NCBI RefSeq assembly: GCF_900103165.1
Contig: NZ_FNKY01000001.1
Span: 992,001 to 1,056,000 of the forward strand
Origin: Nitrosospira multiformis
Lineage (GTDB): Bacteria; Pseudomonadota; Gammaproteobacteria; Burkholderiales; Nitrosomonadaceae
Direction: 5' to 3'
Length of the DNA: 64,000 nt
The translations under genes were made by a program, and so were the position numbers. The notes beneath the pieces are model-generated. The model did no database searches. It was not told the origin of the DNA and saw only the letters and a program-made list of their open reading frames with translations. Shown one piece after another: positions 658-44,558 of the stretch; positions within the stretch are counted from its first letter, which is position 1; every line of letters begins with the position of its first letter.

Positions 658-783
658 CCTAAGCCCGGCAGTGGTAGCGAACCCACCAAAAAAGTGGAAG
701 TAAAGTGATGTAAAAAGTTATTGTGGATCATTTGCTAAAGTTGAAAAATGAGCGATCAGCTGCCAAAAGCTGCCAAAGGTAGG
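658..783. repeat. MITE-like repeat, copy E, in the ilvI-ilvH gap
   Basis: A 126-bp element starting CCTAAGCCCGG and ending GGTAGG (reverse complement CCTACC). It is flanked by the near-identical pentamers TTTAA (653-657) and TTTAT (784-788). Its interior shares the GTAGCGAACYCACCAA block and an AAAAATGAGCGATCA stretch with copy C at 36443-36548. It fills the whole gap between the ilvI stop and the ilvH ribosome site, so it must be transcribed with the operon. The terminal inverted repeats are poor here, so this looks like an old copy. Confidence 0.6.
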
Positions 784-784
784 T

Positions 785-2488
785 TTATACCAGAATCATT
801 TCAGAGAGGCCTTTGCCGCCAGGTACCATCGGGAAGACATTCTCGGTCTGGTCGGTAATGAAATCCATGAATACCAATCGGTCCTTGAGTTTAAACGCTT
901 CCTTTAACGCACCTTCGACATCGCCGGGTTGTTCGATTTTCATGCCGACATGACCATAACTCTCGGCCAGTTTGACAAAATTCGGCAGTGCATCCATGTA
1001 AGATTCAGCATAGCGGTTACCATGGAAGAACTCCTGCCACTGACGCACCATTCCCATGTAGCGATTATTCAAATTAACGATCTTGAGGGGAAGGTTATAT
1101 TGCTTGCAGGTGGACAGCTCCTGTATACACATCTGGATGCTGGCTTCGCCAGTCACGCAGGCTACCGCACCCTTAGGGTTGGCGAACTGCACCCCCATTG
1201 CTGCCGGAAGACCAAAGCCCATGGTTCCCAAGCCGCCGGAATTGATCCATCGGCGCGGCAAATCGAATTTGTAAAACTGCGCCGCCCACATCTGGTGCTG
1301 GCCGACATCCGAGGTAATGAAAGCGTTTCCCTTGGTCACTTTATAGAGTTTTTCAATCACCATCTGCGGCTTGATGATGGTGCTTGCACGATCATACTTG
1401 AGACAATCGCGCGCACGCCACAAATCAATCTGCGCCCACCATGCGTCAAGAGCGGATTGATCAAGCTTCTCTTTACCAGCCGTAAGTAATTTTATGAGTT
1501 CATCCAATACGTCGGAAATACTGCCGACAATGGGAACATCCACCTTCACGCGCTTGGAAATGGACGATGGGTCAATATCTATGTGTATGATCTTACGGTC
1601 TTCGTTGTAGAAATGCTTCGGGTTGCCGATCACACGGTCGTCGAAACGGGCGCCAACGGCCACTAGCACGTCGCAATGCTGCATGGCCATGTTGGCTTCG
1701 TAGGTACCATGCATTCCCAGCATCCCGACAAACTGTTTGTCGGTGGCGGGATATCCGCCCAGTCCCATCAATGTATTGGTGCAGGGAAAACCCAGCATGC
1801 GTACCAGATCAGTCAACCGTGTGGCGGCATCGCTCAAAATGACCCCGCCACCCGTGTACATCATCGGACGCTTGGCGCCCAATATGAGTTGTACCGCTTT
1901 TTTGATCTGCCCGGAATGCCCCTTGGTGACAGGATTGTAGGAGCGCATGCTGACCGTTTCCGGGTAAGTAAATCCGGTCTTCTGCTGGCTCACGTCTTTC
2001 GGTATGTCCACCAGTACCGGACCAGGGCGGCCGGTTGAAGCGATGTAGAACGCTTTCTTGATCGTAGTGGCGAGTTCGTTGATGTCTTTCACGAGAAAGT
2101 TATGTTTGACGCAGGGACGCGTGATGCCCACGGTATCGACTTCCTGGAATGCATCCAGCCCAATGGCATGAGTGGGCACCTGTCCGCTGATGATGACCAG
2201 CGGGATCGAATCCATATAGGCGGTGGCGATTCCGGTAACCGCATTAGTCACGCCAGGACCGGATGTTACCAATGCCACGCCTATTTTGTTGCTGGAGCGG
2301 GCGTAGCCGTCCGCCGCGTGCACGGCCGCTTGCTCATGACGCACCAAGACGTGCTTGACCTTATCCTGCTTGAACAACTCGTCGTAAATATACAGCACGG
2401 CTCCGCCGGGATAGCCAAATATATAATCCACCCCTTCTTTTTGCAAACAACGCACTGTAATTTCAGCGCCCGTTAATTCCGTGCTCAT
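785..2488 (-). CDS. ilvI: Acetolactate synthase large (catalytic) subunit
   Basis: This thiamine-diphosphate enzyme condenses pyruvate to acetolactate, or with 2-oxobutyrate to acetohydroxybutyrate, the first step of branched-chain amino acid synthesis. From the ATG at 2488 it has 567 residues: N-terminal ThDP-binding domain (GYPGGAVLYIYDEL, RHEQAAVHAADGYAR), central FAD domain and C-terminal ThDP/Mg domain. The Mg motif, usually GDGS, reads GEAS here. A TTG 33 bases upstream also opens the frame, but the ATG start MSTELTGAE fits the family better. First gene of the operon with ilvH and ilvC. Confidence 0.95.
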   Translation of the reverse strand: MSTELTGAEITVRCLQKEGVDYIFGYPGGAVLYIYDELFKQDKVKHVLVRHEQAAVHAADGYARSSNKIGVALVTSGPGVTNAVTGIATAYMDSIPLVIISGQVPTHAIGLDAFQEVDTVGITRPCVKHNFLVKDINELATTIKKAFYIASTGRPGPVLVDIPKDVSQQKTGFTYPETVSMRSYNPVTKGHSGQIKKAVQLILGAKRPMMYTGGGVILSDAATRLTDLVRMLGFPCTNTLMGLGGYPATDKQFVGMLGMHGTYEANMAMQHCDVLVAVGARFDDRVIGNPKHFYNEDRKIIHIDIDPSSISKRVKVDVPIVGSISDVLDELIKLLTAGKEKLDQSALDAWWAQIDLWRARDCLKYDRASTIIKPQMVIEKLYKVTKGNAFITSDVGQHQMWAAQFYKFDLPRRWINSGGLGTMGFGLPAAMGVQFANPKGAVACVTGEASIQMCIQELSTCKQYNLPLKIVNLNNRYMGMVRQWQEFFHGNRYAESYMDALPNFVKLAESYGHVGMKIEQPGDVEGALKEAFKLKDRLVFMDFITDQTENVFPMVPGGKGLSEMILV

Positions 2489-2703
2489 GCTTTCTTGGAT
2501 CCTAATGTTGGGTGCCGGCAAAATGATAAATAAAACACTGAACAGTAACGGTTAGCTCATCGTTGGTCAACCCCTTGACAGCGGATCAAGCGGCATTGAT
2601 GTTTACGCACGGACGCAATGGAGCGGGTCGTGCAAGTTAATCAAATAGATCTCCGCGATGAGGGTAGTGGAATCAAACCTCGCTTCTTTTTATTCCGTTT
2701 TTC

Positions 2704-3132
2704 TTATGTTTTCCGATGCGGGCATGCCGGCTTGGTGCAATCCGCGTAAAGTGCCAGTGAGTGCTCGTGTATGGTGAAGCCACGATCCTTGGCAATTCTA
2801 ACTTGACGCTTCTCAATTTCCGCGTCATAGAATTCCTCTACGCGACCGCATTGCAGGCATACCAGATGGTCGTGGTGACTGCTGCTGGCAAGTTCAAACA
2901 CCGCCTTGCCACTCTCAAAATGGTGGCGTTCAAGCAAACCCGCCTGCTCGAACTGTGTCAGCACCCGATAGACTGTGGCAAGACCGATATCCTCACCTTC
3001 ACCGATAAGTGTTCTGTAAATATCTTCCGCCGATAGGTGCCGTACTGGACTGTTTTCGAACAGCCCCAGTATTCTAAGCCGCGGCAGCGTGGCCTTCAGG
3101 CCCATGGTTTTAAGATCATTCGGCTTGCTCAT
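2704..3132 (-). CDS. fur: Ferric uptake regulator Fur
   Basis: A 142-residue metal-dependent repressor. The start [20 protein letters not shown] matches the family's winged-helix N terminus; an upstream in-frame codon would add 12 unsupported residues. The dimerisation domain carries the HHDH motif, a CLQC pair and a C-terminal CTKPACPH, all zinc or iron ligand positions. It is divergent from bamE with about 74 bases between start codons. The same fur/omlA arrangement with overlapping promoters is known in Pseudomonas, so mutual regulation is plausible. Confidence 0.95.
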
Positions 3133-3206
3133 GGCTATATCCATCCTGTAAGTGATTTGCTGTATCATATAACGTTAAGTCTGCTTTGGAAACATACGCT
3201 GCCGCG

Positions 3207-3911
3207 ATGCGCGCGAAAATACTCACGTTGCTTGTTTTGCAACTGCTCGCTGGATGTTCGTCTGTTCCATCTCTGGTCTACAAAATCGAGATTCAGCAGG
3301 GGAATGTTATTACCCAGGAAATGGTGGATAAACTAAAACCTGGCATGACCCGATCGCAAATACGCTTCGCGCTGGGTTCGCCAATGATTAGTGATGTTTT
3401 TCACGACAACCGGTGGGACTACGTTTATCGCCTTGAGCAAAAAGGTCATCTGGTTGAGCAACGGCAACTGACGGTGTTTTTCGAGGATGATAAAGTAGTG
3501 CGTGTGGGTGGCAGCTTTGCACCCACACTCGCTTTTGCTCCAACTCAACCCGTTGATCCAACCAGATCCATGGCTAACGTGGAAAGCGGCACTCCAGCCC
3601 CGGTTGATGCCACTGCGCTACGGGAGCCGGAGATGTCCAGCTTAAGGCAGGCACCTCCTTCGCAGGCCGCGATCCTGCCTCAGCCGGTAGATGAGGTGAT
3701 CAAACCCATCGCTAACGAAGGCAATGGTCCCGCTTTGAGTGCTATTTCGCCAGGCGATATTCCGGCTTCAAGCAGTGTTCCGGCATCCAGCGATTCTTCG
3801 ATGGTGAGCAAGGCTCCAGTTTCATCGGAACCGAAGCCGGTAGTTTCCAGGCAAACGCCATCGCAAGCGGGAGACAGGGGAAGTAGAGAAGCGGATCAGC
3901 CGAAAGAGTAG
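3207..3911 (+). CDS. bamE: Outer membrane assembly lipoprotein BamE with long C-terminal extension
   Basis: The ATG at 3207 gives a short signal peptide ending in the lipobox LLAGC, so the mature protein should be an outer-membrane lipoprotein of the BAM beta-barrel assembly complex. The BamE/SmpA fold covers about residues 25-105 (GMTRSQIRFALGSPMISDVF, WDYVYRLEQ, LTVFFEDDKV). The remaining 125 or so residues are rich in Pro, Ser and Ala and look disordered. E. coli BamE is only 113 residues, so this tail roughly doubles it. An earlier in-frame codon at 3186 is less likely because it would precede the signal peptide with seven extra residues. Confidence 0.92.
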   Translation: MRAKILTLLVLQLLAGCSSVPSLVYKIEIQQGNVITQEMVDKLKPGMTRSQIRFALGSPMISDVFHDNRWDYVYRLEQKGHLVEQRQLTVFFEDDKVVRVGGSFAPTLAFAPTQPVDPTRSMANVESGTPAPVDATALREPEMSSLRQAPPSQAAILPQPVDEVIKPIANEGNGPALSAISPGDIPASSSVPASSDSSMVSKAPVSSEPKPVVSRQTPSQAGDRGSREADQPKE

Positions 3912-3917
3912 AGGTTA

Positions 3918-3960
3918 ACCTGGCTAATCCAAGTTCGGTGGCTGGCCGCTCATTTTCGCT
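3918..3960. repeat. Possible decayed end of the MITE-like family, copy F
   Basis: Just after the bamE stop the sequence runs CCTGGCTAATCC, then TTCGGTGGCTGGCCGCTCATTTT. This resembles the end of copies A and B (CCTGAATCC, CGGTAGTTGACCGCTCATTT). No matching second end or target duplication was found, so this may be a half copy or chance similarity. Confidence 0.3.
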
Positions 3961-4014
3961 CATTTCTCATTTGTCTGGCTCGGTACGATGATTCACAGAA
4001 ACTTCAGAATATAG

Positions 4015-4824
<810 letters not shown>

Positions 4825-4892
4825 CTTCGGTTAACCCGGTTGGCAGATAAAACTGTCTAATGTTTTCCGGTTGATCGTACTGCCGCATTTCG

Positions 4893-4921
4893 TTGAAGGA
4901 TGCGCCTTTTGGGCGTATAAT
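4893..4921 (+). promoter_or_regulatory. Sigma-70 promoter of carAB
   Basis: TTGAAG (4893-4898) and a perfect TATAAT (4916-4921) are separated by 17 bases. Transcription would start near 4928, about 70 bases before the carA GTG. This is among the best promoter matches in the window. Confidence 0.75.
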
Positions 4922-4934
4922 CTCAGGTTCAGAG

Positions 4935-4964
4935 AAACGGGACAGGCGATAGCCTGTCCCGTTT
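4935..4964 (+). terminator. Perfect 13-bp hairpin with T run in the carA leader
   Basis: AAACGGGACAGGC and its exact complement enclose a GATA loop, followed by TTTT. It could terminate read-through from dapB. However, it begins only about 7 bases after the predicted carA start site, so it could instead act as an attenuator or as a 5' stabilising stem on carAB mRNA. Confidence 0.6.
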
Positions 4965-4996
4965 TCCACGCCTTGTCAGTATTCCAGGAGCTACCC

Positions 4997-6136
4997 GTGT
5001 CACAACGCCCGCATGCCGTTCTCGCGCTCGCCGACGGCACCATTTTTCGCGGCATATCCATCGGCGTGGAAGGCATCAGCACGGGCGAAGTGGTGTTCAA
5101 CACCGCTATGACCGGTTATCAGGAGATTCTGACTGATCCATCTTATTGCAGACAGATTGTCACACTGACTTATCCGCATATCGGTAATACGGGTACGAAT
5201 CCCGACGACGTTGAATCCGGCAGGATTGAGCGGGTATATGCCGCCGGTCTGGTGATCCGTGATCTGCCTTTGCTCTCCAGCAATTGGCGGCAAACCCGGA
5301 CTTTGCCGGAATATCTCAAGCAACAAGGCGTAGTGGCGATAGCGGATATTGATACCCGCAAGCTTACGCGCATCTTGCGGGAAAAGGGCGCGCAAGCCGG
5401 TTGTCTCATGACGGGCAATTTCAATGAAGCTGATGCGCTGGAGCATGCCAGAGAATTTCCCGGGCTGGTCGGAATGGATCTCGCCAAGGTGGTGAGTTGT
5501 GATCAGCCTTATGAATGGAACGAAGGTGAATGGGAACTGGGGTGCGGCTATCAAGTTCAGAAAAATTCGCGCTTTCATGTTGCCGCACTCGATTTTGGAA
5601 TCAAGCGCAACATACTTCGCAAGCTGGCGCAGCGCGGCTGCAAGGTTACGGTACTTCCCGCGCAGACATCGGCGGATGAAATTCTGGCATTGCAACCCGA
5701 TGGAGTGTTTCTTTCCAATGGGCCCGGTGATCCGGAGCCCTGTGATTACGCCATCGCCGCCACCAGGAAATTGCTTGAAAAGGAGGTGCCGATTTTTGGC
5801 GTTTGCATGGGACATCAATTGCTGGGACTGGCCAGTGGTGCCAGAACCATCAAAATGAAATTTGGCCATCACGGCGCCAACCATCCGGTGCAGGACCTGG
5901 ATACGGGAAGAGTCATGATTTCCAGCCAGAATCACGGCTTTGCGGTAGATATCGAGACGCTGCCGAAGCATGCACGGGTTACGCATGTATCGTTGTTTGA
6001 TGGCAGTCTGCAAGGATTTGAACTGATCGGCCAGCGTGCATTCTGCTTTCAGGGGCATCCCGAAGTCAGTCCCGGACCTCACGATCTGGATTATTTATTC
6101 GACAAATTTATCGGTTTGATGGAGGGGAAAAGGTGA
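4997..6136 (+). CDS. carA: Carbamoyl-phosphate synthase small subunit (glutaminase)
   Basis: Start is a GTG at 4997, six bases after AGGAG; the longer open frame upstream runs through the promoter and hairpin and is not used. The 379-residue protein has the CarA N-terminal domain and a class I glutamine amidotransferase domain (about residues 190-375) with the nucleophile Cys in [10 protein letters not shown] and the His-Glu pair in [13 protein letters not shown]. It supplies ammonia from glutamine to CarB for pyrimidine and arginine synthesis. Confidence 0.97.
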
Positions 6137-6196
6137 GACGTGGATATGAAGCGTACGCAGGGTGCGCCGCTTTCACATTTTGCATTTCACCGTGCT

Positions 6197-9100
6197 ATGC
6201 CTAAACGTACCGACATAAATTCCATCCTCATTATTGGTGCGGGGCCTATTATCATCGGCCAGGCGTGTGAGTTCGATTATTCCGGCGCGCAGGCGTGCAA
6301 GGCGCTGCGCGAGGAGGGTTATCGCGTCATCCTGGTGAATTCAAATCCCGCCACTATCATGACCGATCCCGAAATGGCCGATGCGACGTATATCGAGCCT
6401 ATTATCTGGCCCATGCTGGAAAAAATCATTGCCGCCGAGCGTCCCGATGCGTTGCTGCCGACGATGGGTGGACAGACGGCGTTGAATTGCGCACTCGACC
6501 TGGCAAAGAATGGCGTGCTGAAAAAATATGGTGTCGAATTGATTGGCGCCTCGCGTGAGGCGATCGACAAGGCCGAGGATCGTGAAAAATTCAAACAGGC
6601 CATGAGCAGAATCGGGTTGGGTTCCGCGCGTTCCGCCATCGCGCACAGCCTGGAGGAGGCGTTGCAGGTACAAGCGATGGTGGGTTACCCCGCCATTATC
6701 CGTCCGTCATTTACCATGGGCGGTAGCGGCGGCGGCATTGCCTACAACCGCGAGGAATTTCTCGGCATTTGTGAGCGTGGGTTGGAGGCCTCGCCCACCA
6801 GGGAATTGCTGATTGAGGAATCGGTGATCGGCTGGAAAGAATTCGAGATGGAAGTGATACGTGACAAGAAAGATAACTGCATTATCGTTTGTACCATCGA
6901 AAACCTCGATCCAATGGGCGTTCATACGGGTGATTCCATCACTGTTGCGCCGTCTCAGACATTGACGGACAAAGAGTACCAGATCATGCGTGATGCATCG
7001 ATCGCGGTGCTGCGCGAAATCGGTGTGGAAACTGGCGGCTCCAACGTACAGTTTGCGATTAATCCGCAAGATGGCCGTATGCTGGTTATCGAAATGAATC
7101 CGCGCGTGTCGCGCTCTTCCGCCCTGGCTTCGAAAGCAACCGGATTTCCCATTGCCAAGGTTGCGGCGAAACTTGCGGTAGGCTATACGCTGGATGAGCT
7201 CAGGAATGACATCACCGGCGGGGCGATGCCAGCCTCGTTCGAGCCGGCAATAGACTATGTCGTTACCAAGATACCGCGCTTCGCGTTTGAGAAATTTCCT
7301 CAGGCCAACGACCGTCTTACTACCCAGATGAAGTCAGTGGGCGAGGTCATGGCAATTGGGCGCACATTCCAGGAATCGTTGCAAAAAGCCCTGCGCGGAC
7401 TGGAAATTGGCGTTAATGGACTGGACGAGAAAACAACCGATATTGAAATTATCGAAACCGAATTGAGCGATCCCGGCCCCGAGCGAATCTGGTATGTGGC
7501 TGATGCGTTTCGTTGCGGCATGGCATTGGATGAAATTCACAAACTTACCCACATTGATCCCTGGTTTTTGGCGCAGATCGACGATTTGGTGAAACAGGAG
7601 CAGTCTCTTGCCGGCAAGACGCTGGATACGCTTGATCCGCAGGCGCTGCGCAACCTGAAACGCAGCGGTTTCTCCGACCAGCGTCTGGCGAAGCTGATGA
7701 ATACCACCCAGGTCGAAGTGCGCGCCAGGCGCCATCAACTCGATTTGCGTCCAGTATACAAGCGGGTTGATACCTGTGCTGCCGAGTTCGCTACCCGTAC
7801 TGCTTACATGTACTCTACCTATGAGGAGGAATGCGAGGCGCTGCCCAGCGGCAGAAAAAAAATCATGGTGCTGGGTGGCGGGCCTAATCGCATCGGTCAG
7901 GGCATCGAATTCGATTACTGCTGCGTCCACGCGGCGCTGGCCTTAAGGGAGGACGGTTTTGAGACCATCATGGTCAACTGCAACCCCGAAACCGTTTCGA
8001 CCGATTACGATACCTCCGACCGGCTATATTTTGAACCGTTGACCTTGGAGGACGTGCTGGAAATTGTCGCGGTGGAGAAGCCGCTGGGCGTCATTGTGCA
8101 ATATGGCGGACAGACCCCGCTGAAACTCGCGCGCGATCTCGAGGCTAATGGGGTGCCCATCATTGGCACCAGCCCCGACATGATTGACTGCGCAGAAGAT
8201 CGCGAGCGTTTTCAGAAGATGTTGCACCAGCTTGGGCTGAAGCAGCCATTAAATCGTACCGCGCGCAACCCGGAAGCGGCACTTGCCGCCGCAAATGAAA
8301 TCGGATATCCGCTGGTAGTGCGCCCCAGCTATGTGCTGGGGGGGCGTGCCATGGAAATTATCCACGAGCAGATGTACCTGGAACGCTATATGCGCGAGGC
8401 GGTGAAGGTTTCGCACGATTCACCGGTGTTGCTGGATCGTTTTCTCAATGATGCCATTGAAGTGGATGTGGACGCGATTTGTGACGGAGAGGCCGTGCTG
8501 ATTGGCGGCATCATGGAACACATTGAGCAGGCTGGTGTGCACTCGGGGGATTCCGCCTGTTCGCTGCCACCCTTCAGTCTTTCAACTGTCCTGCAGGATG
8601 AGTTGCGCCGCCAGACGTCAGCGATGGCGCGTGCACTTAAAGTGGTGGGATTGATGAACGTGCAATTCGCCATTCAGGATGATACGGTATACGTGCTGGA
8701 AGTCAATCCCAGGGCATCGCGCACGGTTCCTTTCGTGTCCAAGGCGACGGGATTGCAACTGGCAAAGATTTCCGCCCGCTGTATGACCGGGATGACGCTT
8801 GCCCGTCAAGGTGTCACCGGAGAGGTGATCCCGTCCTACTATTCAGTCAAAGAGGCGGTGTTTCCTTTTATCAAATTTCCTGGGGTGGACACCATACTCG
8901 GGCCCGAAATGAAATCGACGGGCGAGGTAATGGGCGTAGGACATACTTTTGCCGAAGCGTTCGTCAAGTCACAGTTGGCTGCTGGAGTCAAACTACCCAG
9001 CGCTGGCAAGGTCTTCATCAGCGTGCGCCAGTCGGACAAGCCCCGGGTGGTGGAAATCGCCCGCAATCTTGCGGAACTTGGATTCACCCTTTATGCTACT

Positions 9101-9418
9101 CGAGGTACCGCAACGGTGCTGATCGAAGCAGGACTGGTGGTAACGCCGGTAAACAAAATGGCGGAAGGGCGTCCCCATATCGTGGATATGATCAAAAATG
9201 GGGAAATGAATTTAATTATCAACACGGTGGAAGATAAGCGGAGTGCGATTCAGGATTCTTATTCGATCCGCCATGCCGTATTGCAGGCAAGGGTAACGTA
9301 TTACACCACGCTGGCGGGTGCGCGCGCCGCGTGCATCGGTATGGCGAGCCTACGAGAGTTGCAGGCCTATCGCTTGCAGGAATTGCATGCAGCGGCGGTG
9401 CCGCCCGGTGCGGTTTAA
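6197..9418 (+). CDS. carB: Carbamoyl-phosphate synthase large subunit
   Basis: From [17 protein letters not shown] the protein is 1073 residues, the same as E. coli CarB. It has two homologous ATP-grasp synthetase halves (about residues 1-400 and 550-935), the second opening with [20 protein letters not shown], plus a C-terminal MGS-type regulatory domain. It makes carbamoyl phosphate from bicarbonate, ammonia and ATP together with CarA. A GTG at 6140 and ATG at 6146, directly after the carA stop and preceded by AAAGGTGAG, could add 17-19 residues; the ribosome site there is better than at 6197, so the start is not settled. Confidence 0.95.
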
Positions 9419-9525
9419 TGAAAAAAGCAATCGCCTGTCAATCGCACTGGATTCGTCATGCCGAAATCTTGCGAAATAGTCTGGACGATGACATCGTATA
9501 CAATACAGGAAGGTGGTAATAGGCT

Positions 9526-10002
9526 ATGAGTACAATTCCATTGACCGTGATTGGCGCGGGAAAACTGCGTGCCGAATTGCAAGAAATGAAAACCGTGCAG
9601 CGCCCCGCTGTCATCGCCGCCATTGCGGAAGCTCGTTCCCACGGGGATCTTTCAGAAAACGCCGAATACGAAGCAGCCAAGGAACGGCAAGGTTTTATCG
9701 AGGGACGCATTGCCGAATTGGAAAGTAAACTTTCCAATGCTCAAATCATCGATCCGGCGTTGCTGGATGCCAGTGGCGCTTGTGTATTTGGCGCAACGAT
9801 CGATTTGCAGGACATCGCCAATGATACGGTAGTGACTTACCAGATTGTTGGCGACGATGAAGCCGATATAAAGGAGGGGAAAATCTCCATCAGCTCTCCC
9901 ATTTCGCGTGCCCTGATTGGCAAGTATGCCGGAGATATAGCTGAGGTCCTTGCGCCCGGCGGGGTGCGGGAGTATGAGATTCTTGGTGTGAGATATATCT
10001 AA
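9526..10002 (+). CDS. greA: Transcript cleavage factor GreA
   Basis: At 158 residues it is standard for the family. The N-terminal coiled-coil hairpin (about 1-75) carries the acidic tip motif [14 protein letters not shown], whose Asp and Glu chelate catalytic Mg in the RNA polymerase secondary channel. The C-terminal FKBP-like domain ends [10 protein letters not shown]. It rescues backtracked polymerase. A strong ribosome site (AGGAAGGTGG) precedes the ATG. It follows carB in the usual order. Confidence 0.97.
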
Positions 10003-10041
10003 TAAGCCTAATAAATTGGGCTCATCGGTTGCGGCCGCATG

Positions 10042-10392
10042 TCACGCTTGAAAGCTGCGTTTGGTTCGGCGTGATTCTCTTTTTTTACGGAATGCAGCGG
10101 TAGCCGGCTTTGCAATTTCGTCGGGTTTGGGACGATAGATTACCAGTATCTTGCCGATGTGCTGCACCGGCGCCGCTTCGAGGCGATGACACATTTCCTG
10201 GAGCAGCGCGTTCCTTATTTCCCGTCCATCGCTGAACACCCTGACTTTGATCAGTTCGTGACTTTTGAGTCCTTGATCCAACTCATGAATAACATTTTCC
10301 GACAAACCTTCCGCGCCTATCCGGACAATTGGCCGGATGGTATGGGCAAGCACCCGGAGCGCACGTCGATGATCCAGTGTAAGGGCTAGCAT
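10042..10392 (-). CDS. yhbY: YhbY family RNA-binding protein (CRM domain)
   Basis: The CRS1-YhbY domain covers about residues 1-90 ([54 protein letters not shown]). The family binds pre-50S ribosomal particles. A basic Lys/Arg-rich tail follows. I start at [10 protein letters not shown]; 24 further upstream residues are open but unlike the family. It is divergent from rlmE with only 30 bases between starts, a pairing common in proteobacteria. Confidence 0.93.
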
Positions 10393-10422
10393 GAGATTTC
10401 TCGGAAACCGGCATTTTACGCG

Positions 10423-11043
10423 ATGAAGCGCGCCAAAACCAGCAAAGCATGGATGAAAGAGCATGTGAATGATTTTTTTGTCCAGCAGGCAAAAAAAGAA
10501 GGTTATCGTTCACGTGCCGCGTATAAGTTGATTGAAATCGCCAGGCGTGATCATTTGCTCGGGCCAGGCATGACGGTGGTGGATCTGGGCGCGGCTCCCG
10601 GTGGCTGGTCGCAGGTGGCGGCGGAAAAGCTGGGCAGGAAGGGGAAAGTGATCGCGCTGGATCTCCTCGAAATGGCGCCGCTGCCGGGAGTGACGTTCAT
10701 CAGGGGCGATTTCGGTGAAGCGTCCATTTTGGCGGAACTGAAAAAAGAATTGGGGAAGTATCCTCCTGATCTTGTAATTTCAGATATGTCACCTAATATA
10801 AGTGGCATAGGAGTGAGTGATCAGGCGCGCAGCATGTATTTAGCCGAGCTCGCGCTGGAGTTCTCCCTGGAACAATTGAACTCTGGCGGCAATTTTCTCG
10901 TCAAAGTGTTTCAGGGTTCCGGTTTTGAGGAGTTCCTAAGCGCGATGCGTGCCGGGTTCGGCAAGGTGGTAACACGAAAGCCGGAAGCGTCTCGTGGCCG
11001 CAGTAGTGAAATTTATTTGCTGGGCTTGGGTAAGCGGAGTTAA
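10423..11043 (+). CDS. rlmE: 23S rRNA (uridine-2'-O-)-methyltransferase RlmE (FtsJ/RrmJ)
   Basis: A 206-residue Rossmann-fold methyltransferase. It has the SAM motif [13 protein letters not shown] (about 52-64), the DMSPNISG active-site stretch and a downstream Lys in NFLVKVFQG, consistent with the K-D-K-E tetrad. In E. coli it methylates U2552 of 23S rRNA late in 50S assembly. It is upstream of ftsH as in many gamma- and betaproteobacteria, where both are heat-shock genes; I did not find a convincing sigma-32 promoter. Confidence 0.96.
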
Positions 11044-11203
11044 ACCATTTTCATAGTTAGGCCAGATACGCCGCAGGAGATATATTTTACCGAAGCAAGG
11101 CGGCAGTGACGGCATTTATCCATGCTATTCGCTGTTATAAAACCTGAAATGGGTTTAGAATGAAATACTCAAGGATTTTGACGGCGCGAGCCAAGGAGCT
11201 ATC

Positions 11204-22035: not shown

Positions 22036-24429
22036 ATGAAATTTTCTGAAAATTGGCTTCGTACTTTTGTTGATCCACCATTATCCACCCGTGATCTCGC
22101 CCATGCGTTGACCATGGCGGGTCTGGAAGTGGAAGCCATCGAGCCTGTCGCCCCGGCTTTCAACAAGGTGGTGGTGGCCGAAGTCCTGTCCGTGGAAAAA
22201 CATCCGGATGCCGATCACCTCAATGTCTGCCAAGTGAACGCTGGCTCCACCGCGAGTAACGAGCCGCTACAAATCGTCTGTGGTGCGATGAATGTTCGTG
22301 CCGGTATAAAAGTGCCATGTGCTTTAGCTGGTGCGCAACTACCCAAGGTTGTCATTGAGCAGACGAGGATACGCGGGGTCGAATCCTCCGGCATGCTGTG
22401 CTCAGCCAGGGAGCTCGGTTTGGAAGAAACCGAGGCGGGTTTGTTGCTGCTCCCTGGCGATGCGCCAATAGGTGTGGATTTCCGCGATTATTATGAACTG
22501 GATGATACCCTTATTACACTCAAGCTGACACCCAACCGTGCCGATTGCCTGGGGCTATCCGGCATAGCGCGGGAAGTGGCGGCGATTACTTCCGGAATGC
22601 TTAAGCCGCTCGAAATCGAACCGGTTCAGGATCGGATCGAGGAAAGTCTGGCGGTATACGTGGATGCGCCAGATGCCTGTCCACTTTATTGTGGGCGAGT
22701 AGTACGTGAAATATCTCTTGATGTTCCCACGCCGCAATGGATGATTCGCCGCCTGGAGCGCAGCGGGATACGCACGATCAACGCAGTGGTGGACGTGACC
22801 AACTATGTCATGCTGGAAACCGGCCAGCCGCTTCATGCTTTCGACCTGGCCAGGATTACGGGCGGGCATACGGGTGCGGGGGCAATCCATGTGCGCTATG
22901 CCGGATCCGGCGAAATGCTCCAATTGCTGAATGGTGAAGACCTCGTTTTGCAGCCCGACATGCTGGTGATCGCCGATGAGGCCAAGCCGCTGGCGCTCGC
23001 AGGTATCATGGGCGGGAATGAAAGTGGCGTGCAGCAAGGTACAACCGGCCTGTTTCTGGAAAGCGCATTTTTCAGTCAGGAGGTGATCGCCGGTAAATCA
23101 TTCCGCCTGGGCTTTAGTTCCGATTCGGCGCACCGTTTTGAACGCGGCGTGGACTTTGCCGCCACGCGCAATGCGATGGAACGCGCTACAAGTCTGGTGC
23201 TCGATATTTGTGGCGGCAGGGCGGGCCCGATTACTGAAGTCAGGGGTAAATTGCCGCAACGCAATCCGATTGATCTGCGGTTGGAACGGTCACGGAGAGT
23301 GCTGGGCATCACACTTGATGAGGCCACGGCCGCCACGCTATTACGGCGCCTGCAATTCAATTTTTCCTCTACGGCCGGCGTGGCTGGTGTATTTCGTGTA
23401 ACGCCGCCGAGTTACCGTTTCGATCTCGCCATAGAAGAAGACCTGATTGAAGAATTGGCACGCATTTACGGATACAACCATATTCCAGCGGCGTTTCCCC
23501 ATGCAAAGCTGGGCATGCTGCCCGCGTCTGAATCCGTACACGCATCGCCGCAGTTGCGGAAGATTCTGGTAGGACGAGACTACCAGGAAGTCATCAACTA
23601 TGCTTTCGTGGATGTCTCATGGGAATTGGAGCTGGCGGGGGAGAAAACACCGATAGCATTGAAAAATCCGCTATCCAGTCAGATGGGGGTGATGCGTAGC
23701 AGCCTGCTTGGCGGCCTGATATCAAACTTGCAATTCAATCTTAACCGCAAGCAGGCCAGAGTGCGACTGTTCGAGATCGGGTGTTGCTTCGTGAGAGAAG
23801 GTGAAACTTATGCGCAACCGGAGAAACTGGCTGGACTTTGCTATGGAGACGCCGTAGCGGAACAGTGGGGAATGTCCGCTCGCAGAGTGGATTTTTATGA
23901 TGTAAAGGCGGATATCGAGGCGCTCTTTTGGCCCGCACTGCCGAATTTTGAGGTAGTTTCCCATCCCACCCTGCATCCCGGTAAATCGGCCCGAATTCGT
24001 TTGGGTGAAAGAATCGCCGGCTATCTGGGAGAACTTCATCCCCGCTGGCAGCAAAAGCTTGGTTTGCCTGATTCCGCTGTATTGTTCGAATTGGATCTGG
24101 ATATCCTGCTGACACGAAAGCTGCCGATGGCTGCGGAGATATCAAAATTTCCGCTAATACGACGCGATATCGCTGTGGTGGTGGAGGAGGATATTACCGT
24201 GCAGGCGATGCTGGATGGTATGCAAGCGGAAAAATCACCCATGATTCTGGAAATTTCCCTGTTCGACGTGTATCGCGGCAAGGGGATGGAAAATGGCGAA
24301 AAAAGTCTTGCATTCCGGGTGTTATTACAAGATACTCAAAAAACATTGACTGACGCGGAAGTAGACTTGGTCATGACAAAATTGATAAATATTCTGGAAA
24401 ATCAGTTTGGCGCAAGGCTACGTAATTGA
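22036..24429 (+). CDS. pheT: Phenylalanyl-tRNA synthetase beta chain
   Basis: 797 residues, usual length. Order: N-terminal B1 domain, EMAP-type tRNA-binding domain (about 40-155; KHPDADHLNVCQV), the B3/B4 editing domain, B5, a catalytic-like core, and the C-terminal FDX-ACB anticodon-binding domain. The stop codon overlaps the target-site duplication of repeat copy A. Confidence 0.96.
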   Translation: MKFSENWLRTFVDPPLSTRDLAHALTMAGLEVEAIEPVAPAFNKVVVAEVLSVEKHPDADHLNVCQVNAGSTASNEPLQIVCGAMNVRAGIKVPCALAGAQLPKVVIEQTRIRGVESSGMLCSARELGLEETEAGLLLLPGDAPIGVDFRDYYELDDTLITLKLTPNRADCLGLSGIAREVAAITSGMLKPLEIEPVQDRIEESLAVYVDAPDACPLYCGRVVREISLDVPTPQWMIRRLERSGIRTINAVVDVTNYVMLETGQPLHAFDLARITGGHTGAGAIHVRYAGSGEMLQLLNGEDLVLQPDMLVIADEAKPLALAGIMGGNESGVQQGTTGLFLESAFFSQEVIAGKSFRLGFSSDSAHRFERGVDFAATRNAMERATSLVLDICGGRAGPITEVRGKLPQRNPIDLRLERSRRVLGITLDEATAATLLRRLQFNFSSTAGVAGVFRVTPPSYRFDLAIEEDLIEELARIYGYNHIPAAFPHAKLGMLPASESVHASPQLRKILVGRDYQEVINYAFVDVSWELELAGEKTPIALKNPLSSQMGVMRSSLLGGLISNLQFNLNRKQARVRLFEIGCCFVREGETYAQPEKLAGLCYGDAVAEQWGMSARRVDFYDVKADIEALFWPALPNFEVVSHPTLHPGKSARIRLGERIAGYLGELHPRWQQKLGLPDSAVLFELDLDILLTRKLPMAAEISKFPLIRRDIAVVVEEDITVQAMLDGMQAEKSPMILEISLFDVYRGKGMENGEKSLAFRVLLQDTQKTLTDAEVDLVMTKLINILENQFGARLRN

Positions 24430-24430
24430 A

Positions 24431-24503
24431 CCTGAATCCGGTAGTTGACCGCTCATTTAATAGACAGTGTTTTGATTCATCCCGTCCAATTACCGGTTTT
24501 AGG
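24431..24503. repeat. MITE-like repeat, copy A, at the pheT stop codon
   Basis: A 73-bp element with inverted ends CCTGAATCCGGTAGTTG and (reverse complement of the right end) CCTAAAACCGGTAATTG. It is flanked by exact 5-base duplications TTGAA (24426-24430 and 24504-24508). The left flank overlaps the pheT TGA. It shares CCGCTCATTTAATAG with copy B and looks like an internally deleted form of it. Confidence 0.75.
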
Positions 24504-24567
24504 TTGAAAGAAAAGGAATGGCTGATTAGCCACATCCAGAAACGTAAATAAACAGATGAGGGAGAGT

Positions 24568-30469: not shown

Positions 30470-30485
30470 TTGCACGGCCGGTAAG

Positions 30486-33338: not shown

Positions 33339-33365
33339 GTCGTTTGGGAAAGACCAAATTCGACA
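33339..33365 (-). promoter_or_regulatory. ECF42-type promoter before the first YCII gene
   Basis: TGTCGA on the minus strand (33365-33360), 17 bases, then CGAC (33342-33339). Transcription would start near 33331, about 39 bases before the YCII start codon. It lies just downstream of repeat copy B, between the sigma gene and its probable target. Confidence 0.7.
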
Positions 33366-33415
33366 TCGGGAGCGTTGCGTGCAAGGGTGTTTTTGTTGTA
33401 GGGAGGCAGAATGAT

Positions 33416-33651
33416 CCTAAATCCCGTAGTTGACCGCTCATTTAATAGATCAGTATTATGATTAATAACGATATTTCGTATTATTTAACTCCCACCTTTT
33501 GGGTGAGGCCGCTACGGGATGAATTGCACAGTTTTTGCGGCACATGGCTGCGTTGCAACTTCTTGGAATGGAACGACCATTCCGCGTCGTTGCGCCTTGC
33601 CCTGTACCCCAAAAACCGCACACTTCACCCCGTCCAACTACCGGATCTAGG
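33416..33651. repeat. MITE-like repeat, copy B (longest, 236 bp)
   Basis: Ends CCTAAATCCCGTAGTTG and (reverse complement of right end) CCTAGATCCGGTAGTTG match at 15 of 17 positions. The exact 5-base direct repeats ATGAT lie at 33411-33415 and 33652-33656. No open frame of transposase type is inside. The stretch 33293-33705 between the YCII and sigma genes holds only this element and the promoter at 33339-33365. Confidence 0.8.
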
Positions 33652-33705
33652 ATGATCGGACCGCCCTGCATAGTTCCGCAGACTAAGTAAGAGGCGGGAG
33701 CTGTT

Positions 33706-34929: not shown

Positions 34930-35090
34930 ATGCTGGGTAGCCAGGGTATCCTTATGTTCAGGTATCAGAATCTCCCTGCTTGCTCCGTAGCATCATGGTC
35001 TTCGCAAAATAGAAATACTCCTCCGGCCTATGTGGATAGAGAGTTCTGGCGGGCGACAAAGCACAGTGCTTATGGGTCCGCTGGAAAAAA

Positions 35091-36377
35091 TTATGACAAA
35101 GGTTCGTCGTTCAAGCCCAGGCTCTTCAGCTCAAGTCCCTCGATTTCCTGCAGCGATTTGCCCGCAATCCCCTGCAAGTCTCCATACATACCCACCGTTG
35201 CACCCATCACGCGCATAATTTGCTCTTCTCGCTTCGCCCATTGCTTCATTATTACCTTGCGCTCCTTGTCGAGATCGTCCTGCATGGTGGAAAACGCTTC
35301 GACGATCGCTTCGACACGCTGGCGGAAACGCGGCCCGGTGAGATACTGGTAGATCATCTCCGTTTTAGTTTGCAGACCTTCGGATGATTGCCGCGCCAGG
35401 GCAAGTTCCAGCAATGACTGGCGCAGGATAAGCGCCACCGGCAGTGCAGCGCGAGGATGTGTTACCCAGACACCCTCAACCATTTCGAAGGTTTCAACGC
35501 CTTTTGGCAATGTATGGCTTACCATTACGGCAATTTCCGCTTTGGCGGTACGCTGGTCTTCCCGCAATTTGGCTAGCCACATATCGCTCCAGTTTCGGGT
35601 GCGCTTGGTTTCCCACAGAATAGTGCCGCCGGGCTGCCCGTCCGTGCCGACGACGCGATGCAGTACATCCCCGCCGTAGTCGCCCTTGGGCACCGGTTCG
35701 ATCGCATCGAAAGGGAACTTGGCACGCAGCAGGTTTTCAAGCGCCAGTTCCTGCACTTCTCCCTGAAGCTGCTGTGACCCCTGTTCGGCTCTGCGCTTCA
35801 GCTCTTCAATTTTTTGCTGCATGGATGCGATAGTCTGATCTTTCTCCATTACCTTGAGCTTAAGTCCCTCTTCCGCTTCCAGCCTGGCCTTCGCGCGCAC
35901 TTCGCCGAGCCCATCCTGTATGCGTTTTTCCACGGTAAGTTCGAGTTCGCGCCTGGCATCGTCGAGCTCCCGCTGTTTTTTGGTGAGCTCGGCTTGCACT
36001 TTTTGTGCCGCGGCCAGCTTTTCGTCGCGGCCTTTGAGCACTTCCTGAAGTTCCGTGAGCTCGCGTGCCTTGTTTTCCAGCTCGGCGGCACTGGCAAGCT
36101 TTGCTTTTCTGGATTCTTCGGCAATCACATGAACACGTTCGGTATTCAACTGTGCGGCGACCCGATCGGCTATCTGGATATCCAGCGTGCGTCTCGCCTC
36201 CGTAACTTCTTTCTCCTTCTCTCGAATACCTTGTTCGCGCCTTGCGATCTCGTCATCCTTTCGCGAAAGCTGCTGTTCGAACTGTTTGCGCGTGGCGGCT
36301 ATCAACGGCGCGGCAAGCGACTCGGTGAGCCGGATTTCGGTTTTGCAATGAGGGCAGGTAATAGTGGGTTCCGTCAT
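35091..36377 (-). CDS. DUF2130 coiled-coil protein
   Basis: A 428-residue cytoplasmic protein. It opens MTEPTITCPHCKTEI with a single CxxC, possibly half a zinc ribbon, then a long charged coiled coil (about 25-220), then a globular C-terminal domain. That domain contains DYGGD and WETKRTRNW, which recall the D...ExK core of PD-(D/E)XK nuclease folds; this is my reading, not a proven activity. AGGA precedes ATG 36377. Function unknown. It is downstream of repeat copy C. Confidence 0.8.
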   Translation of the reverse strand: MTEPTITCPHCKTEIRLTESLAAPLIAATRKQFEQQLSRKDDEIARREQGIREKEKEVTEARRTLDIQIADRVAAQLNTERVHVIAEESRKAKLASAAELENKARELTELQEVLKGRDEKLAAAQKVQAELTKKQRELDDARRELELTVEKRIQDGLGEVRAKARLEAEEGLKLKVMEKDQTIASMQQKIEELKRRAEQGSQQLQGEVQELALENLLRAKFPFDAIEPVPKGDYGGDVLHRVVGTDGQPGGTILWETKRTRNWSDMWLAKLREDQRTAKAEIAVMVSHTLPKGVETFEMVEGVWVTHPRAALPVALILRQSLLELALARQSSEGLQTKTEMIYQYLTGPRFRQRVEAIVEAFSTMQDDLDKERKVIMKQWAKREEQIMRVMGATVGMYGDLQGIAGKSLQEIEGLELKSLGLNDEPLS

Positions 36378-36442
36378 AGTTGTTCCTGGGAGGGATTCAC
36401 CACCCTCTGTCTCCATGAAAGCGGGTTGGTATTTCAGGTTAT

Positions 36443-36548
36443 CCTAAATCCGGCGATGTAGCGAACTCACCAAGGTCGCGCGATGCGAAAATTCCTGGTG
36501 GATCCTGGCGTCGAGCTAAAAAATGAGGGGTCAACTACCGGATTTAGA
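36443..36548. repeat. MITE-like repeat, copy C, upstream of sodB
   Basis: A 106-bp element from CCTAAATCCGG to CCGGATTTAGA, so the terminal 10 bases are inverted repeats. Flanking pentamers are GTTAT and ATTAT, four of five the same. The interior matches copies D and E (GTAGCGAACTCACCAA). The right end (reverse complement CTAAATCCGGTAGTTGACC) matches the left ends of A and B. The remaining sequence 36549-36796 before sodB shows nothing I recognise. Confidence 0.7.
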
Positions 36549-36796
36549 ATTATAGGTTAAACCGGGTGATAGGCACTTGCACTCATGCAGGGTTTAGTTT
36601 CTGCGCCGGTTCCAAGTGCGATGGCGCACATATTTTCGGATATACTTGCCTGGATAATTGCCGGATTGGCCGTATAGTCAATCACGCATCGACTCGTTCC
36701 CCTTTACATATTGTTTATATGGGTTCGATTCGTTTGTGTTTCCACACAAGAGCAATAGAACGGATATTTTTCATGTCACCACATAGGAGCGAAAAG

Positions 36797-37414
36797 ATGA
36801 GCGATCAAAAAACTGGAAGTGTGCCCCACATTCTACCGCCGCTACCTTACGCGGATAACGCGTTGGACCCCGTCATTTCGGCCAACACGCTGAGCTTTCA
36901 TTACGGCAAGCATCACAAGACTTATGTCGACAATCTGAACAAGCTGGTAGCGGGTACGGAGCTTGCGGATTTATCATTGGAGAAGGTCATTGCCGCCACA
37001 GCTGGCCAGGCGGATAAGGCCGGGGTTTTCAACAATGCGGCGCAAATCTGGAACCACACATTCTACTGGAATAGCCTGTCCCCCAAGGGGGGTGGTGAGC
37101 CTCCCGCGGCGTTGAAGAAAAAAATTGAGGCATCATTCGATACTGTGGAAGCGTGCAAGAAAGAACTGGCAACGGCGGCGGCGACCCAATTCGGCAGTGG
37201 CTGGGCGTGGCTGGTGCAGGATGGCGACAAGCTCAAGGTGGTCAAGACGAGCAATGCGGATTTGCCGTTGACCCATGGACTCAAGCCGCTACTGACCATC
37301 GACGTGTGGGAGCATGCCTACTACCTTGATTACCAGAACCGTCGCGTGGATTATGTCAACGCTGTACTCGACAAACTGATCAATTGGGGTTTTGCGGCGG
37401 ATAACCATGGGTAG
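36797..37414 (+). CDS. sodB: Superoxide dismutase, iron type
   Basis: From [18 protein letters not shown] (TAGGAG upstream) the protein has 205 residues. Metal ligands are seen in [19 protein letters not shown], and [13 protein letters not shown]. The Gln in [14 protein letters not shown] is the position that marks Fe rather than Mn enzymes. It has no signal peptide, so it acts in the cytoplasm. The open frame extends 77 codons upstream but that part is unlike any SOD. Confidence 0.95.
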
Positions 37415-37432
37415 CACGCCCAACGCGCCGCT

Positions 37433-38635
37433 GTGACCGGGCAGATAACGGAACAACTGGAGATCATCAAGCGCGGCTGCGGCGAGCTCCTTGTGGAAGA
37501 GGAGCTCGCGCAAAAGCTTGCTTTGGATCGTCCACTCAGGATCAAGGCTGGATTTGACCCAACCGCGCCGGATTTGCACCTGGGTCACACTGTTCTGCTT
37601 AACAAGATGCGTCACCTGCAGGATTTAGGGCATCACGCCTTGTTCCTGATTGGCGATTTCACCGGAATGATCGGTGATCCCAGTGGTAAGAACACGACTC
37701 GTCCTGCCCTCACTCGGGAACAAGTGGTCGAGAATGCGCAATCCTACGCAAATCAGGTTTTCCGGATACTCAGGCCCGAGCAGACCGATGTCGTGTTTAA
37801 TTCCACGTGGATGGACAAGCTCAATGCCGCCGATCTGATCAAGCTGGCGGCTACCCATACCGTTGCACGCATGCTGGAGCGGGACGATTTTGGCAAGCGC
37901 TATGAAAGTAACAAGCCCATAGCGATTCATGAATTTTTGTATCCGCTCATTCAAGGCTATGACTCGGTTGCACTCAGAGCGGATATCGAGCTGGGAGGCA
38001 CCGACCAGAAATTCAACCTGCTGGTGGGACGGGAATTGCAAAAGTATTTCGGGCAATCGCCGCAGTGCATTCTCACCATGCCGCTTCTGGAAGGATTGGA
38101 TGGCATCAATAAAATGTCCAAATCCTCCGGTAACTATATCGGCATCGCCGAGACCCCAACCGAGATATTCGGCAAGCTGATGTCTGTTTCCGATGAACTG
38201 ATGTGGCGTTATATCGAGTTATTGTCGTTTGAGCCGATCAGTGTTATTCGCCAGTGGCAGCAGGAAGTGCGGGACGGGCGCAACCCGCGCGACATCAAGG
38301 TCCTGTTCGCTCAGGAGATTGTTGCGCGTTTTCACAGCAGGCACGATGCGGAAAGGGCATTGGCTGACTTCGAGGCGCGCTTCAGGCGTGGCACGATACC
38401 GGATGACATTCTTGAGAAAGTGCTGCATGCGGGAACCGAAGGATTACCCATTGCTCAAGTACTCAAGCAGGCCGGATTAACGGCCAGTACGACCGAAGCA
38501 TTGCGCATGATCGAGCAGGGCGGTGTCAAATTAAATGGCGAAAAGGTTGGCGATAAAGCGCTCAGGCTCAGTCGCGGAGAGACCGCCGTGGTACAAGTAG
38601 GCAAGCGAAAATTCGCCAGGATAACCCTCGCCTGA
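37433..38635 (+). CDS. tyrS: Tyrosyl-tRNA synthetase
   Basis: A 400-residue class I synthetase with the HIGH-type motif [10 protein letters not shown], the KMSKS loop ([11 protein letters not shown]) and a C-terminal S4 RNA-binding domain ([16 protein letters not shown]). It charges tRNA-Tyr. The GTG at 37433, 18 bases after sodB, has no good ribosome site. A tyrS gene upstream of the rRNA operon is common in betaproteobacteria. Confidence 0.95.
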
Positions 38636-38665
38636 TAAAGAGTATGAGAAAGTTCCAGAAACTCC

Positions 38666-38693
38666 TTGACCCCCTGTCTGGTATCTGTATAAT
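38666..38693 (+). promoter_or_regulatory. rRNA operon promoter
   Basis: TTGACC (38666-38671), 16 bases, then perfect TATAAT (38688-38693), with a pyrimidine/GC-rich discriminator typical of growth-rate controlled rRNA promoters. The 16S starts about 225 bases downstream. Confidence 0.75.
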
Positions 38694-38732
38694 TCCGCCT
38701 TCGTTGTCTGGCCTGTAGTTTGTAGCAGGCAT

Positions 38733-38746
38733 TGTTCTTTAAAAAT
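38733..38746 (+). promoter_or_regulatory. boxA antitermination site in the rRNA leader
   Basis: TGTTCTTTAAAAATTT resembles the Nus-factor boxA (TGCTCTTTAACA). A second boxA-like GTTCTTTAACAATTT is at 40893-40908, before the 23S gene. Confidence 0.55.
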
Positions 38747-38923
38747 TTACAGCCGATAGGTGTGGGCACTTGACCAGGACACCCGGAATTATTTTGTCTT
38801 TCGGGGCGAAATACCGGGTAGCTTAAGAGTCGAAGTGCTCGCACGATGTAAGTAGGTTCCGGGGGCTATCTCGATAGAAACCGGAATCGCAGTAACACGT
38901 CAAGCGAGAGTTTTACCAGTATT

Positions 38924-40462
<1,539 letters not shown>

Positions 40463-40580
40463 GAGAAAATTCCTGATCGAGTGTCCACAACCTATCGGTT
40501 GTTCTATAAAGCAGAGCTGGGGGCTCAGGCGTAGGGCTGGAAAAACGAGAAGCCCCGGCCCTTAATTTGAGCTCTGCTCA

Positions 40581-40657
<77 letters not shown>

Positions 40658-40663
40658 GCTAAC

Positions 40664-40739
40664 GGGGGTGTAGCTCAGATGGGAGAGCACCTGCTTTGCA
40701 AGCAGGGGGTCATCGGTTCGATCCCGTTCACCTCCACCA
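40664..40739 (+). tRNA. tRNA-Ala (anticodon TGC)
   Basis: A 76-base cloverleaf; acceptor GGGGGTG with CACCTCC, anticodon loop TTTGCAA, encoded CCA. Six bases after tRNA-Ile. The remaining spacer 40740-41135 holds a boxA-like site (40893-40908) and the left arm of the 23S processing stem, nothing else that I see. Confidence 0.98.
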
Positions 40740-41123
40740 ATTCTGCGATTAAGAATGACGCATCTTTAGAAAATAGAAGTAAACGAAAGCGTTTACTTCT
40801 GGTTTTTAACCAGCGGCTGTATTTTGGGAATAACGGAAAGAAGTTGTGAGGTGCTCTGCACCAATTTTTGCTTCTTCATTCTGTTTTCCCTGCGTTCTTT
40901 AACAATTTGGAAGAAGTAAAATATTTCGTATTCAGCGAATGCGTGGCTTTTTTTGGCTCCGCGTTTGGGGGTGCGAAATAATGGGTTAGATTGTATCGAC
41001 GCATTGTGTTTTTAGTCGGATGCAGTGCGAGCAAACACCTGTAACCAAATTGGTTTGGAATAGAGATTCAGAGTTGGACCGGGTTTTTGACCGGACTCAA
41101 TCCTGATTTTTGGTTCCCGAGCC

Positions 41124-41135
41124 CTTAAGGTTATA

Positions 41136-41144
<9 letters not shown>
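41124..41144 (+). other. 23S precursor processing stem, left arm
   Basis: The 21 bases here are the exact reverse complement of 44017-44037, so the two ends of pre-23S form a 21-bp perfect helix, the expected RNase III processing stalk. Confidence 0.8.
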
Positions 41145-44026
<2,882 letters not shown>

Positions 44027-44222
44027 ATAACCTTAAGTAGTAAGATATAAGGCATAAGGTGTGGAAAGTGGAGTGCAAGGGTGCAAGTCGACCCCGAAAT
44101 TCCCTCAGATGCCGAATGAGGTGTTTGCCCGGTACAATCTTCCCAATTTACTTCTTCCAGAACGTGGCTCGCGATAAGACAACCAGGATCCATTGGTGTC
44201 CCGCTTGCCATGATTAAAGTTA

Positions 44223-44339
44223 CGCTTGGCGGTCATAGCGCTTTGGACCCACCCCTTCCCATCCCGAACAGGGCCGTGAAACGAGGTCGCGCCGATGATA
44301 GTGTGCATTCGCATGCGAAAGTAGGTCACTGCCAGGCAC
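44223..44339 (+). rRNA. 5S ribosomal RNA
   Basis: About 117 bases. GCTTGGC at the 5' end pairs with GCCAGGC at the 3' end; the internal CCCATCCCGAACAGGGCCGTGAAAC and CGCCGATGATAGTGTG are typical. It lies 197 bases after 23S; the 23S-5S spacer holds no tRNA. Confidence 0.95.
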
Positions 44340-44347
44340 CTATAATT

Positions 44348-44384
44348 AAAAAAGCCCTAACTCTTACGAGTTGGGGCTTTTTTA
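44348..44384 (+). terminator. rRNA operon terminator
   Basis: AAAAAAGCCCTAACTC and GAGTTGGGGCTTTTTT form a long stem with one G-U pair and a TTAC loop, ending in a T run. Placed just after 5S. Confidence 0.85.
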
Positions 44385-44448
44385 TTGTATAAACGCACGA
44401 ATGAAATCAAAGCGGAAGCAGGTATTTGAGTATGGCGAACTCCCTTAA

Positions 44449-44558
44449 CTTAAGTCCGTCCGGTAGCGACTCGTCACAAAGGCGAGGTTGGTAGCGTAAA
44501 GAGTCTTGCGGAGCATCGTGCCAAACTGAAAAATAAGTGGTCAACCGCCGGATTCGGG
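44449..44558. repeat. MITE-like repeat, copy D, at the cysA stop codon
   Basis: The right end reads, on the minus strand, CCCGAATCCGGCGGTTGACC, like the left end of copy A. The interior matches copies C and E (GGTAGCGACTCGTCACAAAGG, GAAAAATAAGTGGTCAAC). On the right the flank is TTCAA (TTGAA on the minus strand, the same pentamer as copy A), overlapping the cysA stop codon. The left boundary is not clear. Confidence 0.5.

Follow-up and report, generated by a model that had tools for sequence, protein, structure and literature searches.

Miniature inverted-repeat elements of Nitrosospira multiformis with probable origins in a divergent IS1380-related insertion sequence clade

The DNA analyzed here, a 64,000-nucleotide stretch of the Nitrosospira multiformis genome that we call the window, carries five short elements with common ends, which we treat as a family of miniature inverted-repeat transposable elements (MITEs) and name A to E. 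The fullest is element C (33416 to 33651, forward strand), a 236-bp form flanked on both sides by ATGAT (33411 to 33415 and 33652 to 33656). It contains a small hairpin, CACCTTTTGGGTG, at 33493 to 33505 on the same strand (element base 78) and, also on that strand, a long inner hairpin at 33514 to 33634 (about element bases 99 to 219), which is absent from the short forms. Elements A, D, and E lie on the reverse strand and resemble C without its inner hairpin. Element A (658 to 783, 126 bp) is an apparently old copy between TTTAA (653 to 657) and TTTAT (784 to 788); element D (36443 to 36548, 106 bp) lies between GTTAT (36438 to 36442) and ATTAT (36549 to 36553); and element E (44449 to 44558, 110 bp), apparently old as well, has flanks of CTTAA and TTCAA that agree at three of five bases. 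Element B (24431 to 24503, forward strand) is a 73-bp remnant between two copies of TTGAA (24426 to 24430 and 24504 to 24508), and the TGA inside the left copy is the stop codon of an 807-codon open frame. The initial annotation had described perfect 5-base duplications at B and C and near-perfect ones at A and D, and the flanks listed here agree with it in all four cases. Six Rfam matches at gathering thresholds were found in the window, to rRNA and tRNA; the 5S rRNA gene occupies 44225 to 44337, and element E begins 111 bp past its end.

The terminal inverted repeats of the family are about 20 bp long and of the CCTRAATCCGG... type. When the window was scanned with the end pattern CCTRAATCCGGTAGTTGACC, five matches with at most three mismatches were obtained (the left end of B, both ends of C, and one end each of D and E), compared to none in 100 shuffles. 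Weaker ends were the right end of B (four mismatches) and the left ends of D (six) and A (seven). Across the whole genome (3.52 Mb in two contigs), the 16-mer AATCCGGTAGTTGACC occurs at 122 places with two or fewer mismatches, and the degenerate 20-mer CCTRAATCCGGYAGTTGRMC marks 131 ends with no more than one; the corresponding backwards controls gave 1 and 0. A BLAST search of the genome with element C returned at least 46 matches, at least 33 of them spanning at least 231 of its 236 bases, with identities of 74 to 100%; these counts are lower bounds, drawn from the 40 of 121 first-look candidates that were scored. By global alignment, each of A, B, D, and E was tied to short copies elsewhere in the genome with a score that none of 500 two-base-block shuffles reached. 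Against the copy at 1865544, identical columns numbered 86 of 127 for A, 83 of 116 for D, and 82 of 119 for E. The best model of the short genomic copies is C minus its middle, with about bases 97 to 109 through 213 to 219 removed in four of five cases.

Listing the end pairs that lie within 500 bp of each other in segments of this genome, and keeping those with at least three of five flank bases equal and no more than six end mismatches together, left 47 elements of 54 to 408 bp without a transposase gene. For 38 elements of this genome that pair with another copy across more than 90% of their length, the best within-genome identity has a median of 94% and a maximum of 97%, so no very recent burst of copies is seen. 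We confirm that the five window elements belong to one real MITE family, which is new, well supported, and ordinary in kind. The pattern matches and alignments thereby bear out the initial annotation, which had placed five elements with common ends at these coordinates; its statement that none encodes a transposase also holds, and the elements are short and end in inverted repeats. Further copies in this genome and in relatives, which it had proposed to search for, were found. Besides the 131 ends reported above, the degenerate 16-mer is matched exactly in 15 of the 23 genus genomes, this one included (at most 92 times), and has no exact match in the other 8. With one mismatch allowed, the 20-mer is found in 9 of 399 genomes of the order, 7 of them outside the genus, which contributes just two genomes to that set. 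Elements of 234 to 237 bp are present in three genomes (G134, G238, and G425; G numbers denote genomes and L numbers collected loci), and single ends only in four others (G163, G278, G331, and G478), as well as at one of the three G134 matches. Searches of plasmids and phages gave no DNA match to element C.

To characterize insertion, we examined the bases flanking each element. Perfect duplications were present in 32 of the 47 genomic elements, and all 32 fit NTNAN, having a T in the second place and an A in the fourth (31 fit the narrower WTNAW); taken singly, 89 of the 94 flanks fit NTNAN. The flank-equality filter raises the share of perfect duplications but does not select for any motif. 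Similar results were obtained from the close pairs of exact ends in G001 (28 pairs) and G003 (3 pairs), where 20 of 31 had perfect duplications, every one of them NTNAN. Insertion is biased away from reading frames: open frames 90 codons or longer contain 9 of the 47 insertion points, compared to 1,592 of 2,107 control WTNAW sites, the frames here being simple open frames rather than annotated genes. Preferential targeting of stop codons was considered and rejected, as the 5 of 47 duplications that overlap the stop of a frame of at least 100 codons, against 109 of 2,995 control sites, were too weak a signal.

The initial annotation had also proposed looking in close relatives for empty sites with a single pentamer, and these were found. 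Collinearity with the window is nearly complete in G003 and partial in G009, at about 82 to 93% identity. At the site of element B, where our genome reads TTGAA-element-TTGAA, both relatives carry a single TTGAA, and at the site of D both carry a single ATTAT. Likewise, the G003 counterpart of a copy outside the window, at 2591532, has a single CTGAA. The site of C is without an insert in G003 and G009 and has diverged so that the pentamer is not legible, and the G003 counterpart of the copy at 1790189 is too diverged for its occupancy to be judged. Element E is also present in G003, where the site of A holds a longer sequence that matches in parts. Given that their sites are occupied in G003 too, A and E look like older insertions. 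The gap that holds element B contains other sequences in other genomes: in G010 (L176), a different inverted repeat, GGAAGCTCTGAACAAATC ... GATTTGTTCAGAGCTTCC, lies at nearly the site of B, and in G020 (L181) and G001 (L184), the same intergenic gap has a long extra stretch that is alike in both.

Which transposase could have moved these elements? The candidate that we favor belongs to a clade of divergent IS1380-related insertion sequences. A profile search of a collection of species genomes returned 459 relatives, of which the best 80 were kept, corresponding to 79 loci; 72 of these were examined (L229, L231, L234, L250, L252, L285, and L289 being left out). End pairs were called credible if the two ends were identical at 12 of 20 positions, both began with CCT, and the better end matched the MITE pattern at 13 or more of 20 positions, with equal flanks rewarded. 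Such pairs were recovered at 61 of the 72 loci and not at the other 11, defining 61 autonomous copies of 1,621 to 1,802 bp. Perfect duplications flank 45 of them (among the best 80 of 459 relatives), all NTNAN, and 120 of all 122 flanks fit the motif. Together with those of 52 MITEs, this makes 97 perfect duplications out of 97 that conform to NTNAN. In 28 of the 61 copies, 17 to 19 of 20 bases of the better end match the degenerate 20-mer, which makes these ends similar to those of the MITEs and not identical. The best match is L260 (19 of 20), whose frame holds a stop; both ends of L262 match at 18 of 20 between flanks of TTGAA and TTGAA, and the better end reaches 18 in several others, including UKL13-2. 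The ends of L116, from the branch with 545-amino-acid (aa) proteins, resemble MITE ends as well, and L172, on a Polaromonas plasmid, has the ends CCTATTTTCGGCAGTTAGCG and CCTAGAAACGGCAGTTAGCC with TTAAA duplicated.

Five proteins of the clade scored 67.5 to 90.6 bits against PF13701, above the cutoff of 34.7. Their best NCBIfam model was NF033539, at 130.7 to 155.5 bits and below its cutoff of 180, and we therefore speak of an IS1380-related clade. It shares with the IS1380 family the PF13701 domain, the best model, and 5-base duplications. It differs in falling below the NCBIfam cutoff, in protein length (503 to 545 aa for the five), and in its ends (of the type CCTAAATCCGGCAGTTRCC), and is further set apart by the NTNAN rule and by a hairpin over the start codon at about base 78.

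Inside their ends, the MITEs share the place of this hairpin with the clade. An inverted repeat, CACC-N-GGTG, starts between bases 77 and 79 in 56 of the 61 autonomous copies (at base 78 in 53) and at base 77 or 78 in 22 of the 45 genomic MITEs of at least 100 bp, compared to 14 of 3,680 overlapping control windows from segments of the same genome. Within it lies the motif NTGGGYGA, which starts at base 84 in 52 of the 61; where the frame was checked (L116 and L172), this motif contains the start codon. At bases 77 to 91 of most autonomous copies, among them L213 to L226, TCACC-N-ATG-GGTGA spans the start codon. The hairpin is likely a brake on translation.

Short forms that stand beside whole copies offer an independent parallel. 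In UKL13-2, a 146-bp form consists of bases 1 to 92 plus 1586 to 1639 of the 1,639-bp autonomous element, at 98 to 99% identity; it keeps the left part with the hairpin, a plan like that of the hairpin-less MITEs. Others are a 473-bp form in UKL13-2 (TTGAT on both sides), a 140-bp form in Ideonella, and, on the Polaromonas plasmid, a 234-bp element without a gene that lies 357 bp past L172.

Several observations weigh against descent from this clade. Element C, compared as DNA with the 61 autonomous copies, showed no significant similarity beyond the ends (where the best E value was 0.065), and nothing like its inner palindrome was seen in those copies. The repeat CACC-N-GGTG is not recognizable in 23 of the 45 MITEs, and NTGGGYGA is present in only 15 of 45 (13 of them at base 84). 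The MITE pairs at 587938 and 3002829 have unlike flanks. Our selection of the 61 copies inflates their end similarity and their share of perfect duplications, though not the NTNAN motif, and UKL13-2 alone supplies 13 of the 61 copies and 11 of the 45 duplications (Dechloromonas agitata supplies 4 of the 45). Since no autonomous copy was found that is close to the MITEs in both ends and subterminal DNA, the case for descent rests on the ends, the target rule, and the place of the hairpin. On these grounds we consider it very probable that the MITEs derive from, and were moved in trans by, this divergent IS1380-related DDE insertion sequence clade. A transposase of the clade would bind the roughly 20-bp ends of a MITE and place it at NTNAN targets (WTNAW in most cases), where the five bases would be duplicated. 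The MITE would keep the two ends and, at the position of the autonomous start codon, the small hairpin of a left part presumably inherited from the clade, while the transposase gene would have been replaced by the long palindrome or would simply be missing.

A spread by some other type of transposase, such as Tn3 (as for TIME elements) or an IS630- or ERIC-like system, is hardly credible to us. Tn3-type ends begin with GGGG... and are about 38 bp long, and the MITE ends, CCTRAATCCGG... over about 20 bp, look unlike them; no search aimed at Tn3 or IS630 genes flanked by ends of this kind was made. TIMEs do likewise produce duplications, of 5 or 6 bp, in AT-rich DNA (PMC4133298). The ends, the target rule, and the place of the start-codon hairpin nevertheless fit the IS1380-related clade.

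We then asked where the mover resides. The initial annotation had proposed an IS1380-type transposase elsewhere in the same genome; the IS1380 affinity stands at the superfamily level, but residence in this genome is not supported. PF13701, which matches in 42 of the 120 genomes of the family, has no match in it, nor do the L116 protein (545 aa; 120 family genomes searched) or the L262 protein. Within the genus, L116 matches a distant typical copy in G014 and fragments in G005 and G015, and L262 matches the same three genomes plus, weakly, G010 (E value of 0.22). Complete clade members were encountered exclusively outside the genus, in other Betaproteobacteria. Following eight unpaired ends inward for up to 2.2 kb led to host genes that looked ordinary by eye, which we take to include those for ArgS, FumC, GlnD, XerC, AceF, FolC, and a MutS-like protein. 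Two 2.8-kb end pairs (166.7 to 169.5 kb in our genome and 2.7 to 5.5 kb in G001) were rejected as autonomous copies, as they enclose only host-like genes, and the fragments in G001, G005, G010, and G015 were rejected as movers, as none gave an end pair of use. A 144-bp family member does lie on the contig with the weak fragment of G015. The clade transposase that presumably moved the MITEs would then have been lost from this genome, and the MITE copies probably no longer move.

A typical IS1380 element (like ISEcp1 or L107) in the same genome would also share the superfamily and AT-rich 5-base duplications, and typical members do occur in the genus, as an intact copy in G014 and as fragments in genomes such as G001, G010, and G013. 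We nevertheless regard such a mover as very improbable: besides the missing PF13701 match, the ends of the G014 copy differ from MITE ends, and no end-like sequence with five or fewer mismatches occurs in the 8-kb stretch around the G001 fragments. The ends of ISEcp1 given in the initial annotation (CCTAGATTCTACGT) agree by eye with CCTRAATCCGGYAGTTGRMC only in their first bases. A fragment in G001 (L160, C1:2695897-2696218) matches the typical IS1380 domain and not the 545-aa clade protein.

The long palindrome of the 236-bp form raises the question of whether it is kept for a service to the host, as a terminator, an RNA stabilizer, or a protein-binding site. Folded as RNA, element C reaches -82 kcal/mol, compared to -53.9 (standard deviation, 4.4) for shuffles, a z score of -6.4. 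Across 26 copies (24 from our genome plus G238 and G425), changes on both sides of a pair affect 14 of 74 pairs, against 8.6 in shuffles, and 49 cells, against 25.6 in shuffles and 10 to 17 when slid; the folding, these counts, and the intergenic bias of insertions speak for a host role. Further pair types show no excess, however (53 compared to 53.8 in shuffles), the arms of a palindrome can stay alike through copying, and related copies inflate the pair counts. Elements A, B, D, and E, folded as DNA, are ordinary (z scores of -1.5 to 0.0), the 8 genus genomes noted above do without an exact end, and selection against gene disruption would be expected to produce an intergenic bias. We therefore think a host service improbable, and there is moderate support, from the aligned copies, for a palindrome that has been kept through either selection or copying between arms.

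The hairpin tip varies further. Four copies in our genome, of 377 to 386 bp (C1:1199156, 1551933, 2050713, and 2061406), have about 150 extra bases there, as do several in G001 (L325, L328, L331, and others). In a local search of the collected loci, near-full copies of this insert occur only at family-member loci, with partial matches elsewhere, including L186, L039, L057, L352, and L354. In copy 2050713, the left part is only 76% identical to C, whereas the tip insert shares 95% identity with its counterpart in 1551933, a hint that copies have exchanged sequence. The element at L166 (3539 to 3775), in G238, a genome from a different family of the order, is close to our copies in its hairpin half and has diverged in its left part.

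Compared by description alone, the family has much in common with ERIC, Correia, Chunjie, and QMITE: all are short, gene-less, and mostly intergenic, with inverted ends, target duplications, a hairpin, and many copies. Chunjie-1 is of nearly the size of element C, at 235 bp (PMC10969869). The term IS1380 does not occur in that MITE review, and among the open-access papers searched on IS1380, MITEs, and Nitrosospira, no title or opening of an abstract describes this family. IS1380 transposases have served as the outgroup in a piggyBac tree, and piggyBac elements have a TTAA target and ends that often begin with CCC (PMC10813416); their four-base target contrasts with the five-base NTNAN of the clade and the MITEs. 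We offer as speculation, and as rather unlikely, that the NTNAN rule is a stretched counterpart of the piggyBac TTAA, that the start-codon hairpin some 78 bases from the end holds the transposase in check, and that short forms keep the left stretch (bases 1 to 92 in UKL13-2) also as a cis signal for transposition.

The MITE family described here accounts for numerous intergenic repeats across the genus, and for some in other Betaproteobacteria, and points to their source. It also provides a clean target rule and a pairing of transposase and MITE that can be tested.

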